From: Alicyclobacillus sacchari
GTDB taxonomy: Bacteria > Bacillota > Bacilli > Alicyclobacillales > Alicyclobacillaceae
Assembly: GCF_004366795.1 (NCBI RefSeq)
Contig: NZ_SORF01000009.1
Location: forward strand, 1 to 64,000
Direction: 5' to 3'
Length of the DNA stretch: 64,000 bases
Position numbers and translations under genes: made by a program. The notes beneath the pieces were generated by a model. The model was not told where the DNA came from and ran no database searches. It saw nothing but the letters and a program-made list of their open reading frames with translations. The number at the start of each line of letters is the position of its first letter. Positions within the stretch are counted from its first letter, which is position 1. Shown in pieces: positions 38,694 to 43,058 of the stretch.

Positions 38694-39290
38694 ATGGCCT
38701 GGAAGCGGGCGTTTATCGTATTGTTGTCGATCAATTTACTCATCGTGGTGGCAGCTCTCATTGTGTGGAATACACTTCCAACCAAGAGTCAGACATGGAA
38801 CGGGACAGCCCCTAAAGGGATTGGACAGCAGCCGGCCGTCGAGGTCCAGATTGGCCAGGACGCCATTAACGCGTATCTTTCTTATGCCATCGCGCACGAT
38901 GAAGAAGTGGGCAAGATACTCGGTTCGGCCGATGTGCAGTTCGATCGAAACTGGAACTGCGACTTTGGCATTCGCTTGCTCGGCAGAATCGTGCCATTCC
39001 ACCTTGTGCTTACGCCAGAGGTGACGTCTGGGAACCTTGTCCTTCATGTCGACAGTGCCTCCATGTCCTTTTTCCCCATACCCAACAGTATTCTGTTTTC
39101 GGTGTTAGAACGGGCGCACACGCCGGATTGGGTCGAGACGAATCCCAACCAAGATGATGTCGGGATCGATTTTTCGAAGCGGCCGCAACGCCCGTTTGGC
39201 ATTCGCGTGTTGAATTATTCGGATACCACGAAGAAGTTGGCTCTCCAATTGACAATTTCCCCGCAAGCCGTCCTTTCGGGCAATCAGTAA
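38694..39290 (+). CDS. ypmS: YpmS family protein (DUF2140)
   Basis: Protein of 198 residues with one N-terminal membrane anchor (about 5-25: AFIVLLSINLLIVVAALIVW) and an extracytoplasmic domain. Family features are the VEVQIGQDAINAYLSYAI helix and the FFPIPNSILFSVLER segment with FGIRVLNY near the end. Members occur widely in Bacillales; the fold resembles lipid-carrier domains, but function is unknown. A GGAGG site precedes ATG. Confidence 0.8.
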   Translation: MAWKRAFIVLLSINLLIVVAALIVWNTLPTKSQTWNGTAPKGIGQQPAVEVQIGQDAINAYLSYAIAHDEEVGKILGSADVQFDRNWNCDFGIRLLGRIVPFHLVLTPEVTSGNLVLHVDSASMSFFPIPNSILFSVLERAHTPDWVETNPNQDDVGIDFSKRPQRPFGIRVLNYSDTTKKLALQLTISPQAVLSGNQ

Positions 39291-39420
39291 ATCGCAGTCT
39301 TCACATGAGGAATATCAGAATTTGTCCCGGCGCCGGCGCGGCGGCGGGATAACTTTTAGCTGCCTGTCGCACCCTACAAAACATGAAAGATGGTTCGTGA
39401 GACGATGGGAGGGTGCGTCG

Positions 39421-41223
39421 GTGGATATGAGCTTCACAGGAGCACTGAAACGCCTGTTGACGGTCGACGATTCGATGCTCGACGACCAGTTTACACTCGC
39501 CGACGATGATTCGTCAGAACCGGCTGATACCTATGGCGAGACACCGCAGCCGGAGACGGTCAATTTCACCACTGCAGAAAACAAGACAGACACCTCAAAG
39601 AAACCTGTCTCGATGCGGACATTTCTGCGGCGGGCGACAAGAGAGTACGAAGACGCCGTGGAGAAGGCTCATGTGGGCCAGGATGACGGGATCGAGTGCG
39701 ATATCGACGAGATGAAGCGGCGATTGGAGCGGTTTTTCCACCTGCCGCAGAACAAAGATATCGTGATCCGCGAGTTTCGCGTCGGCGTTGAAAGCAAGTC
39801 GCCATGGCGCGGTATGGCCGTGTTTGTCGATGGGCTGTCCGACAAAAACGTCATCAATTCAGCCATCCTTGAGCCATTGATGATTCTCACACACGTGAGC
39901 GAAGAAAATCCGCGACGCACGCTCGAGTATGTCGTGGAAAAACTACTCCCCGGCAATCAATCTCAAATCGTCGACAAATGGTCAGAGGCGGTTGCCAATA
40001 TCCTGACAGGATCAACTGTGCTCTTTCTCGACCGTTGCAATGGCGCGCTGGTGATTGAGACAAAGGGCTGGGAACACCGATCCGTATCGACGCCGCAGAC
40101 GGAAAACGTCGTTCGTGGTTCACAGGATGCGTTTACGGAAAACTTTCGTGCGAACACAGGATTGGTCCGTGCGCGACTGCGTACGGAACACTTGGTTACG
40201 GAAATTCATACTGTCGGCAATCTGGCGCGCACAGACGTCGCCATCATGTACATTCATGGCGTGACCAATCCGAAGCTGGTGCGCGAGGTGCGTCGGCGCA
40301 TTTCGCAGATCGACGTCGACTTTATCCTCGATAGCGGTATGTTGGAACAGTTCATCGAAGATCGGCCGAGCATGCTGATTCCGCAGGTGATGGCGACGGA
40401 GCGGCCGGACAGGGTCGCGGCCTCTCTGGCGGAAGGCTATGTCGCCCTGTTTGTGGGCAATAGCACATATTGCCTGATTGTCCCGGTTGTCCTCTGGTCC
40501 TTGGTGCACAGTTCGGAGGATTCCAACATTCGCTTCTTGCCAGGGACGTTCATGCGGCTGATTCGCTGGATAGCGTTGCTGACGGCGTTATTGCTTCCGG
40601 GGCTCTATGTGGCGGTGACAAATTATCACTCGGAGATGTTGCCCACAGATCTGATGCTTGCGATTGCAGGCAGCCGCGAACAAGTGCCGTTTCCAGTCGT
40701 GGTGGAAGTTCTCCTTATGGAATTTGCCATTGAGCTGATTCGCGAAGCGGGCATTCGCATTCCGTCGGTGATCGGTCCGACCATCGGCATTGTCGGCGCG
40801 TTGATTATCGGCCAATCGGCCGTTCAGGCTGGTATCGTGAGCCCGTTGTTGGTCATCGTCGTCGCGACGACTGCACTTGCTTCGTTCACGGTGCCGAACT
40901 ATGAATTGAGCATGGGCATTCGCATCATGCGCTTTGCGTTCTTGATTGCCGGTGCCGTATTGGGGTTCTATGGAATTGCCATTCTGTTTGTTGTGTACGT
41001 CGTGCGTCTGACGATGCTGAAATCGTTTGGCGTTCCTATTTTATCGCCCATTGCGCCGTCTAGCGGCGCTTCGCGCGACGTTTTGCTGCGCGGGCCACTC
41101 TGGTCGATGAACAAACGCCCATCGTTTTTATATCCGTTGCGAAGTTGGCGACAAAAGCCCATGTCCAGGCCTTGGAGTGCGCCAACGCGCAAATCGGCTG
41201 GTAAAGAGGGGGGAGAGACATGA
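39421..41223 (+). CDS. Spore germination receptor A subunit (GerAA/GerKA family)
   Basis: Protein of 600 residues. An acidic, low-complexity start (about 20-70) leads to the GerA N-terminal domain with LPQNKDIVIREFRVG, LEPLMIL and GSTVLFLD, then EAFTENFRTN-like DAFTENFRANTGLVRARLR and VAIMYIHGVTNPKLV. The C-terminal half has five or so membrane segments (TFMRLIRWIALLTALLLPGLYVAV in part, GIRIPSVIGPTIGIVGALI in part). A subunits sit in the spore inner membrane and release ions on sensing germinants. The start is GTG, seven bases after GGGAGGG; the earlier in-frame ATG lacks a site. It overlaps the B gene by four bases. Confidence 0.93.
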   Translation: MDMSFTGALKRLLTVDDSMLDDQFTLADDDSSEPADTYGETPQPETVNFTTAENKTDTSKKPVSMRTFLRRATREYEDAVEKAHVGQDDGIECDIDEMKRRLERFFHLPQNKDIVIREFRVGVESKSPWRGMAVFVDGLSDKNVINSAILEPLMILTHVSEENPRRTLEYVVEKLLPGNQSQIVDKWSEAVANILTGSTVLFLDRCNGALVIETKGWEHRSVSTPQTENVVRGSQDAFTENFRANTGLVRARLRTEHLVTEIHTVGNLARTDVAIMYIHGVTNPKLVREVRRRISQIDVDFILDSGMLEQFIEDRPSMLIPQVMATERPDRVAASLAEGYVALFVGNSTYCLIVPVVLWSLVHSSEDSNIRFLPGTFMRLIRWIALLTALLLPGLYVAVTNYHSEMLPTDLMLAIAGSREQVPFPVVVEVLLMEFAIELIREAGIRIPSVIGPTIGIVGALIIGQSAVQAGIVSPLLVIVVATTALASFTVPNYELSMGIRIMRFAFLIAGAVLGFYGIAILFVVYVVRLTMLKSFGVPILSPIAPSSGASRDVLLRGPLWSMNKRPSFLYPLRSWRQKPMSRPWSAPTRKSAGKEGGET

Positions 41224-42374
41224 GTCAGTCGGCGCGGCGCAACGCGAAGGTCCCAGGCTCCGAGATGACAGCCATGCTGATCATTTTCGTCAGTACCAAT
41301 GCGTTCCTCACCTATCCGCGATACATCAGTTTGAGTGGCTATGAGGCAGCTTGGATGGAGCCCGTATTTTCGGGGATGTTGACGCTCATTTTATTTTTCC
41401 TGGTCGAACACCTGTTGCGGAGGTATTTCAAAAACCTGGACATCGTCGAAGTCTCTAAAGAGGTGTTTGGAAGGTTCGGTGCAATCTTGATAGCGCTTTT
41501 GTTCTCGCTGTACTTCCTGTGTTCTACCGCCGCGGTCATGCGCGAGTTTACCGAAAATGTGGTCAGCACCGTCCTTCCCTCAACCCCGATTCTGATCGTT
41601 GGCGCGGTGTTCATGTTTGCTGTGGGATACATCGTCTACGGCGGCATTGAGGGCATTTGTCGAACAGCCTTCATCTTTTTGCCGATACTCTTGGTTGGGC
41701 TTGTTGCTGTGTGCCTTCTGACCGTCAATTGGTGGCGGCCCTACATGCTGCTGCCGTTGTGGGGGACGGGACCAGAACAGGTTCTGCGCGGCTCCCTTCA
41801 ATACAGCTCGATTTTCGCCAACGTGTTGCTGCTGACCATCATCTATCCGCACGTGCATGACACGTCGAAAATGCGCAGAATTGGCTTTGTCAGCATTGTG
41901 GTTTCGACCTTGTTGCTCGTTGGGCTGATGCTCACGTATCACATGGTCTTTCCGGCATCCGAAACGGGAAAGACGTCTTTCGCCTTGTATCGGTTGGCGC
42001 GCATGATCCACCTCGGGCCGTTCTTTCAAAGACTGGAGAGTATCTTCATCTTTTTGTGGGTGACTGCCGCCACTGTGCGGATGGCTGTTACCCTGTGGGG
42101 GTGCTCGTACCTGCTTGGCAAGGCGTTTGATTGGCCGACGTATCGCCCGGCGGTGCCAGCGCTTGTTCTGTTATCGTTCTCGCTGGGCATGTGGCCTGAA
42201 AACTGGATTCAGGTCATCAATTTTGACGGTACCTATTTGCTTCGTTGGGGGTGGATTGTGGTCTTTGCGGTTCCGATTGCGGTGTTGTCCATCGGTGCCA
42301 TGGTGAAGTTGATGCGGGGAGGCGGCCGCTTCCACGGAGGCCATCGTGGGCGAAGGAGGATGCAGCGTGTTTAA
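41220..42374 (+). CDS. Spore germination receptor B subunit (GerAB family permease)
   Basis: Amino-acid permease-like protein of 384 residues with ten membrane segments. The family start SEMTAMLIIFVSTNAFLTYPR is in its usual place (quoted up to a mid-segment), and there is LYFLCSTAAVMREFTE in TM3. B subunits are thought to bind the germinant. ATGA overlap with the A gene couples translation. The basic C-terminal tail (GGGRFHGGHRGRRRMQRV) overlaps the next small gene by eight bases. The germinant cannot be predicted. Confidence 0.92.
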   Translation: MSQSARRNAKVPGSEMTAMLIIFVSTNAFLTYPRYISLSGYEAAWMEPVFSGMLTLILFFLVEHLLRRYFKNLDIVEVSKEVFGRFGAILIALLFSLYFLCSTAAVMREFTENVVSTVLPSTPILIVGAVFMFAVGYIVYGGIEGICRTAFIFLPILLVGLVAVCLLTVNWWRPYMLLPLWGTGPEQVLRGSLQYSSIFANVLLLTIIYPHVHDTSKMRRIGFVSIVVSTLLLVGLMLTYHMVFPASETGKTSFALYRLARMIHLGPFFQRLESIFIFLWVTAATVRMAVTLWGCSYLLGKAFDWPTYRPAVPALVLLSFSLGMWPENWIQVINFDGTYLLRWGWIVVFAVPIAVLSIGAMVKLMRGGGRFHGGHRGRRRMQRV

Positions 42375-42540
42375 ATTCCTGTTTGCCATGATTATTCCTG
42401 TCATGATTTTCGCGTATACGATGTCATTCATGCGTTGGGCAGGCAGTCGTGCCGGTGCGACGGCGCAGGTATCTGCTGGTACGCTGGGTGTTCTGTCTCT
42501 GGCCGTCAGCGCGGCGGCACTGTGGAAGTTGTTAATCTGA
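42367..42540 (+). CDS. Small two-segment membrane protein, possible germination receptor D subunit
   Basis: 57 residues from a GTG with AGGAGG seven bases upstream. Two hydrophobic segments (VFKFLFAMIIPVMIFAYTM and SAGTLGVLSLAVSAAALWKL) joined by a short loop (RWAGSRAGATAQ). Several Bacillus germinant receptor operons contain a D gene encoding a protein of just this size and layout, which modulates receptor function. The position directly after the B gene supports this. No sequence motif is diagnostic, so the call is inference. Confidence 0.55.
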   Translation: MFKFLFAMIIPVMIFAYTMSFMRWAGSRAGATAQVSAGTLGVLSLAVSAAALWKLLI

Positions 42541-42617: not shown

Positions 42618-43058
42618 ATGGAGAACCGTGAACCGGTTGTGATATATACTGACGGCGCTTGCTCTCGAAATCCAGGACCAGGCGGCTGGGCGGCGATTTT
42701 GCAATGGAACGATACCGTCAAGGAACTGTCCGGGGGCGAGCGCGAGACGACGAATCAACGTATGGAGATTCAAGCCGTGATCGAAGGACTAAGGGCTTTA
42801 AAACGTCCATGTGATGTTGTGATTCATTCGGATTCAGCCTATGTCGTCAATTGCTTTCAGCAGAAGTGGTATGTGAACTGGCAGAAAAACGGGTGGCGTA
42901 ACAGCAAAGGGGATCCTGTGCAAAACAAGGACCTGTGGGAAGCGTTGCTGGCTGCCATGAAACCACACAACGTGCAGTTTCAGAAGGTCAAGGGCCACGC
43001 CGGCGTACACTGGAACGAGCGCTGTGACGAATTGGCGCGGGCGGCGATTCCGCGATGA
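42618..43058 (+). CDS. rnhA: Ribonuclease HI
   Basis: Degrades RNA in RNA:DNA hybrids. 146 residues. The catalytic carboxylates D12 (YTDGACSRNPGPGGWA), E50 (RMEIQAVI), D72 (HSDSAYVVN) and D137 (NERCDELA) are all present, with H127 in KVKGHAG. The handle region with basic and Trp residues (QQKWYVNWQKNGWRN) is intact, as in E. coli RNase HI. AGGAGG lies seven bases before ATG. It overlaps queG by four bases. Confidence 0.95.
   Translation: MENREPVVIYTDGACSRNPGPGGWAAILQWNDTVKELSGGERETTNQRMEIQAVIEGLRALKRPCDVVIHSDSAYVVNCFQQKWYVNWQKNGWRNSKGDPVQNKDLWEALLAAMKPHNVQFQKVKGHAGVHWNERCDELARAAIPR

Follow-up and report, generated by a model that had tools for sequence, protein, structure and literature searches.

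A germinant receptor of Alicyclobacillus sacchari very probably encoded at two loci, with its C subunit gene unlinked and downstream of rsfA

In the account of the Bacillus subtilis germinant receptors given in PMC11841064, the A subunit is a cation channel, the B subunit binds the nutrient and the C subunit lies outside the membrane where it touches both, and the receptor complex breaks when any subunit is lost. Orphan A and B subunits found elsewhere can act with other receptors, as described in PMC5935672. Here we describe a GerA-type receptor locus of Alicyclobacillus sacchari (assembly GCF_004366795.1; 2.95 Mb, 66 contigs, 99.7% complete; G000 in our numbering) which lies in a 64,000 nucleotide stretch of contig NZ_SORF01000009.1 (positions 1 to 64,000, forward strand, part of our contig C9), referred to as the window. 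The usual, though not universal, layout with all three receptor genes in one operon was not found at this locus, and we conclude that a complete GerA-type receptor is very probably encoded at two loci. The window would supply A, B and a small D-like subunit, and an unlinked gene downstream of rsfA would supply the C lipoprotein. The proteins are ordinary receptor proteins in an unusual arrangement, and the four genes concerned are as follows.

39421-41223, plus strand: gerA-type A subunit gene, 600 amino acids, GTG start, TGA stop (Pfam GerA PF03323, E = 5.5e-176; PDB 6o59, 1.4e-51)
41220-42374, plus strand: gerB-type B subunit gene (spore permease family), 384 amino acids, ATG start (PF03845, 2.7e-44; TIGR00912, 7.1e-42, above cut-off)
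42367-42540, plus strand: D-like gene, 57 amino acids, GTG start, TGA stop, two hydrophobic segments by inspection, no Pfam family
G000:C6:101576-102850, minus strand: lone gerC, 425 amino acids, unlinked, downstream of rsfA

The first-pass annotation had described A, B and a small D-like gene with no C at 39421-42540, and this was confirmed by the domain matches and open reading frames. Three overlapping plus strand genes fill the interval, A and B sharing the overlap ATGA and the start of the small gene overlapping the end of B by 8 bp. None of the 37 A loci fetched from the family of the window genome showed a C-type open reading frame, with flanks of about 4 kb in both directions wherever the contig was long enough; "family" refers throughout to 41 genomes from 16 genera, the A. 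sacchari genome included.

That C is encoded elsewhere, one of two possibilities raised in the same annotation, was strongly supported by the genome search, the comparison with relatives and the trees. The A. sacchari genome has six matches to the GerAC C-terminal family PF05504, five of them above the Pfam cut-off. The matches on contigs C1, C3, C5, C12 and C23 adjoin A and B matches, although on C23 the A gene is in two pieces and C falls below the cut-off. The C23 gerA (G000:C23:1415-2796; L013, L014) lies in two frames with an internal TGA and is either a pseudogene or the product of a sequencing error. The sixth gerC match is on contig C6, which has no A or B match. Contig by contig, the A, B and C matches therefore leave one A-B pair without C and one C without an A-B pair. 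The lone C protein contains both GerAC domains (PF25198, 1.2e-30; PF05504, 5.1e-24) and matches TIGR02887 above cut-off, and the profile of its family matches the solved relative GerBC (3n54) with E 7.6e-23. It carries a lipobox, with the region GC[YF]D conserved, and its gene lies about 63 bp downstream of a gene for an RsfA-family regulator.

The two loci co-occur almost throughout the order. A lone C orthologue was found in 41/41 family genomes and in 15 of the 18 genomes of a second family of the same order, referred to as the sister family (56/59 overall). Long A matches were present in 38/41 family genomes (at least 55% identity, own genome counted) and in 15/18 sister-family genomes, while fragments of A were seen in G031 and G033, where the end of A lies beside B, and in G051 (57 residues). 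With fragments counted, 55 of the 59 genomes have both A and C, one has A only (G049, 73% complete), one has C only (G034, 62% complete) and two have neither (G043, 91% complete; G044, 60% complete), giving a Fisher p of 0.005 with relatedness ignored. When fragments are left out the counts become 52, 1, 4 and 2 (p = 0.025, again ignoring relatedness). An apparently broken B gene in G025 was put down to a contig break, since its pieces sit at the ends of two contigs.

Nor was a nearby gerC found that would belong to the transcript of A and B. In A. sacchari the lone C is on a different contig, and in all 12 family genomes where a single chromosome-sized contig carries both genes, A and C are 0.6-1.8 Mb apart, contigs being taken as circles. 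Among 57 lone C loci from 56 genomes only one, in G034, had A or B nearby, and these belong to a paralogous operon; at this locus (L152) the lone C is followed, after about 2.4 kb, by an A gene of another receptor and then by C and B matches. Larger flanks in the sister family gave no A or B near lone C at any of 15 loci. Among named loci C was present in 0/23 of the split type as against 25/26 outside loci, where the one without C is cut by a contig end and one other has C in two pieces. The lone C stands behind rsfA on the same strand in 41/41 family genomes and near rsfA on the same strand in 13/15 of the sister family (1.4-2.3 kb, match to match), the other two being cut by contig ends. 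Transcription of C by read-through from rsfA alone was rejected as a general rule, because opposite-strand genes intervene in the sister family and also in some members of the family.

The small gene follows B in 34 of the 37 fetched family loci, the remaining three being cut by an element (two) or a contig end (one), and in 11/11 sister-family loci with an uninterrupted A and a whole B (by profile; nine by simple listing). It encodes 56-62 amino acids across the relatives. Since it is found after B across relatives and with a low nonsynonymous rate (dN 0.05-0.06, synonymous rate dS 1.3-1.5, against the two nearest relatives), it is not a chance open reading frame. A homologous D gene follows C at 14/26 outgroup loci and at 16/16 loci from the sister lineages described below. 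With a profile of the family small proteins, all nine sister-family sequences used scored 26.6-44.4 bits, and 8 of 13 clostridial D proteins exceeded the 14.9 bits reached by the highest of 2298 shuffled controls. The five remaining clostridial sequences scored 6.3-14.8 bits, above the 95th percentile (5.2), the lowest of them also below the best reversed control (8.8). The short regions fetched from around the genome's other receptor operons showed no further copies.

The first-pass annotation had likened this protein to the D subunits. The likeness held for size, topology, place and homology to the last gene of the A-B-C-D operons, and did not extend to GerUD of Bacillus megaterium, to which no similarity was detected (-0.8 and -1.7 bits). 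GerUD, here the 76 amino acid gene upstream of gerUA on pBM700, chosen by length and place, with a length that fits the description in PMC4661057, was accordingly dropped as a homologue. Over 35 sequences the loop between the two segments has a mean of 3.0 lysine and arginine residues, while the two ends have 0.8 and 1.0. Under the positive-inside rule this suggests that the loop faces the core. As judged from sequence comparison, the small gene is an old member of the operon of this receptor, D-like in size, topology and place, and D emerges as a long-standing and conserved fourth member of this receptor type in Bacilli and Clostridia alike.

The surroundings of the window operon give an indication of where C was once placed. 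Upstream of A are a gene we take to be nth-like and a DUF2140 gene, the latter in the same place in 36/37 relatives, and downstream of the small gene are rnhA and a gene presumably queG-like, the names nth and queG being given from the sequences.

38694-39290, plus strand: DUF2140 gene directly upstream of A, a conserved neighbour (PF09911, 4.8e-18)
42618-43058, plus strand: rnhA, which marks the position of the locus, ATG start (RNase_H, 1.1e-45)

The lone C profile was run on 250 sampled genomes of the class. Matches reaching 1e-30 came from 56 of these, including 22 genomes of the order. Matches below 1e-90 from beyond the order came from 16 genomes belonging to six families (the sister lineages, loci L324-L339), and in 16/16 the matched C lies inside an A-B-C-D operon, between B and D. 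The same genomes hold an A protein 51-60% identical to that of the window, the A of G216 being broken between contigs. The rnhA gene follows D directly at 3 of these 16 loci and lies within 2.6 kb at two more; judged by these sister operons, the A-B-D-rnhA-queG order of the window is thus that same locus with C taken out. All four weaker profile matches examined were in A-B-C operons, three with a D call. The 16 sister genomes gave 25 rsfA-family loci, none of which showed a C within 1.5 kb, although flanks of this length do not make the negative a strong one. Six sister-family loci (L269-L274) show a second, intact A-B-C operon, the C of which ranks next after the lone C with this profile.

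C thus left an A-B-C-D operon and was kept. The first-pass annotation had offered as its other possibility a receptor that works without C, and this is not needed with a lone C available. We consider it very unlikely that A and B act without any C, helped by D, and that the lone C has some other job. Botulinum Group II, as treated in PMC5935672, and the description of SpoVAF with FigP as an ion channel in PMC11841064 do point in that direction. The lone C has nevertheless been kept almost throughout the two families, it is by sequence the C of A-B-C-D operons of this A-B type, it retains a lipobox and both GerAC domains, and the B. subtilis receptors described in PMC11841064 fail without any one subunit.

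The relation of the lone C to other C proteins was followed in two trees. The first C tree (85 rows, IQ-TREE quick) included 21/40 family and 15/15 sister-family lone C proteins, with the sister-lineage operons left out. In it the lone C proteins of the two families fell into a single clade (97), which joined clostridial operonic C and the second sister-family operon (93), away from all five C paralogues of the own genome. Trees of A and of B made with FastTree (80 rows each) agreed with this. In the second C tree (101 rows) the 16 sister-lineage operons were added, four long rows were left out and three of the five own paralogues were kept. The lone C and the 16 operonic C formed one clade, with a Shimodaira-Hasegawa-like approximate likelihood ratio (SH-aLRT) support of 99, apart from the included own paralogues (100). 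These trees bear on a further explanation, in which C is supplied by the C gene of one of the five other receptors. Those genes do share the genome, and subunit sharing is described for GerUA and GerUC of B. megaterium with a monocistronic GerB (PMC5935672), yet each of the five adjoins its own A and B and is distant from the operonic C of this A-B type (all five in the first tree, three of five in the second), so that we regard this explanation as extremely improbable.

For the separation of C itself we favour one relocation, probably in the ancestor of the order. The lone C genes of both families lie near rsfA and on the same strand, which speaks for a single event. We have to admit that two results weigh against it: the second C tree places the family lone C with 11/16 operonic C and not with the sister-family lone C (90, unstarred), and the A tree likewise no longer unites both families (80). 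A single clade of the split genes was not rejected by the approximately unbiased test on reduced sets (p = 0.44 for C and p = 0.21 for A). Single relocation as a proven fact was withdrawn once the sister operons entered the trees. The reading of one receptor from two loci is unaffected by the tree result, because it is independent of whether C moved once or twice.

Signals for transcription and translation at the window locus are listed below; the promoter is a candidate named by its resemblance to the sigma-G consensus.

39347-39376, plus strand: sigma-G-like promoter, GGATA (39347-39351), 18 nucleotides, CACCCTA (39370-39376)
39407-39413, plus strand: ribosome binding site GGGAGGG of the A gene, 7 nucleotides before the GTG at 39421
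42353-42359, plus strand: ribosome binding site AAGGAGG of the small gene

Sigma-G-like boxes were scored in the relatives against the same consensus with a mark of 8.0, the expectation being taken from pair-block shuffles and the window itself lying outside the scan. Boxes of at least 8.0 were found before A at 26/37 family loci (1.6 expected) and before the lone C at 17/40 (2.2 expected). Before B, rnhA, QueG and DUF2140 they were at or below expectation, and before rsfA they were found at 7/39 loci against 2.9 expected. Boxes identical to those of the window, GGATA-18-CACCCTA, score 7.75 in locus L087, below the mark.

Taken together, we infer that the A-B-D locus and the lone C function jointly. 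An ancestral A-B-C-D operon at the rnhA-queG locus would have lost C to the neighbourhood of rsfA, with the two halves co-inherited since. Both loci would be transcribed in the forespore, probably by sigma-G, C being delivered there from a second transcript and presumably working as it does in the B. subtilis receptors, while D may tune assembly or sensitivity. Several points weigh against a receptor made from these two loci. Co-occurrence of A and C follows the species tree, and the 59 genomes are not independent events. Boxes in the sister family are weak, at 8/15 loci for A (2.4 expected) and 4/15 for C (2.5 expected). The lone C is not the sole unpaired part in the A. sacchari genome, since an A match without B or C, which we take to be SpoVAF, lies on G000:C2. 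Finally, because orphan A and B subunits can act with other receptors elsewhere, the lone C could serve another receptor too.

Five genomes, drawn from two families, have the gerA gene of this locus interrupted at shared codons. The corresponding place, uninterrupted in A. sacchari itself, is as follows.

40780-40800, plus strand: codons 454-460 (TIGIVGA) of A, place of element insertion in five relatives

The genomes are G009 (L099, L264; named locus L171, A. fructus), G040 (L122, L265), G053 (L261, L374), G047 (L262, L375) and G045 (L263, L376). The gerA match stops at codons 459-462, and the remainder, which starts at codon 453-454, is found at another place beside B and rnhA (D was matched in two). 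The codons around TIGIVG are present at both ends. The two parts share a contig in G053, where 93 kb separate them, and in G040, where the distance is about 107 kb. A large serine recombinase lies beside the right end in 5/5 genomes; the five are approximately 50-54% identical in comparisons made against those of G009 and G040, for which the domains were checked. The G040 and G053 elements look from their gene content like integrative conjugative elements, because both encode ATPases of type IV secretion or coupling-like kind, although the match for the G053 coupling protein is weak; an actin-like protein is also present in G053. In the G047 element (L262:4050-12800) a row of genes resembles, by eye, a type I CRISPR-Cas set. 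One further contig (L268, G033:C115) ends at the element-site codons of gerA and is possibly from a sixth interrupted genome.

The top phage relative of the G009 recombinase (L264:6041-7603), among the matches listed, is that of Alicyclobacillus phage MMB025 (37% identity over 69%), a phage reported in sigK (PMC13141910). Known elements of this sort are described in sigK and gerE (PMC13141910, PMC5595907) and also in spsM and yabG (PMC4191935, PMC10747680). No account of an element inside a gerA-type gene was found among the matches listed from the open-licence PMC literature. Whereas sigK and gerE are mother-cell genes, expression of gerA-type genes belongs to the forespore, and excision would therefore have to occur in the surviving line. 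Five interrupted gerA genes might suggest instead that the locus is in decay and the lone C left over. This has next to no likelihood given that, in comparison with the two nearest relatives, all four of A, B, C and D have a dN much lower than dS, that the genes are present across two families and that the aligned pieces of the interrupted gerA genes have no stops, one TGA in G053 lying outside the aligned piece. A more speculative extension of the two-locus receptor, and one that we think unlikely, is a two-key receptor in which A-B-D and C are separately promoted and independently dosed, and in which gerA is a favoured site for the large serine-recombinase elements, these perhaps being excised in the forespore to restore the receptor. 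If this were true, germination would hinge on recombination taking place in the future spore itself.

A search for A-B-C operons would call this receptor incomplete, though its parts are kept almost throughout the order, including the juice-spoilage Alicyclobacillus. The split also opens a natural route to two questions, whether C has to be produced along with A and B and how the C proteins are matched to receptors. No account of a gerC separated from its receptor was found among the matches listed from the open-licence PMC literature, and the described systems are each alike in part. The Bacillus receptors GerAA-GerAB-GerAC (PMC11841064) share with it the A, B and C subunits with their family domains and a lipoprotein C, but here C is outside the operon and the ancestral order appears to have been A-B-C-D. 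GerUD and GerKD, as described in PMC4661057, are likewise short proteins that have two membrane segments and whose genes lie within or next to the operon of a receptor, whereas the topology measured for GerUD is opposite to that suggested for the D-like loop of the window. The clostridial orphan subunits GerXAO and orphan gerB (PMC5935672, PMC5083711) are also encoded far from the rest of a receptor; in those cases the stray gene is A or B, while here it is C that strays, and sister lineages still have a C where it once stood. The A-B-C-D operons of Clostridia and the sister Bacilli have homologous A, B, C and D genes and differ in that C still stands between B and D.

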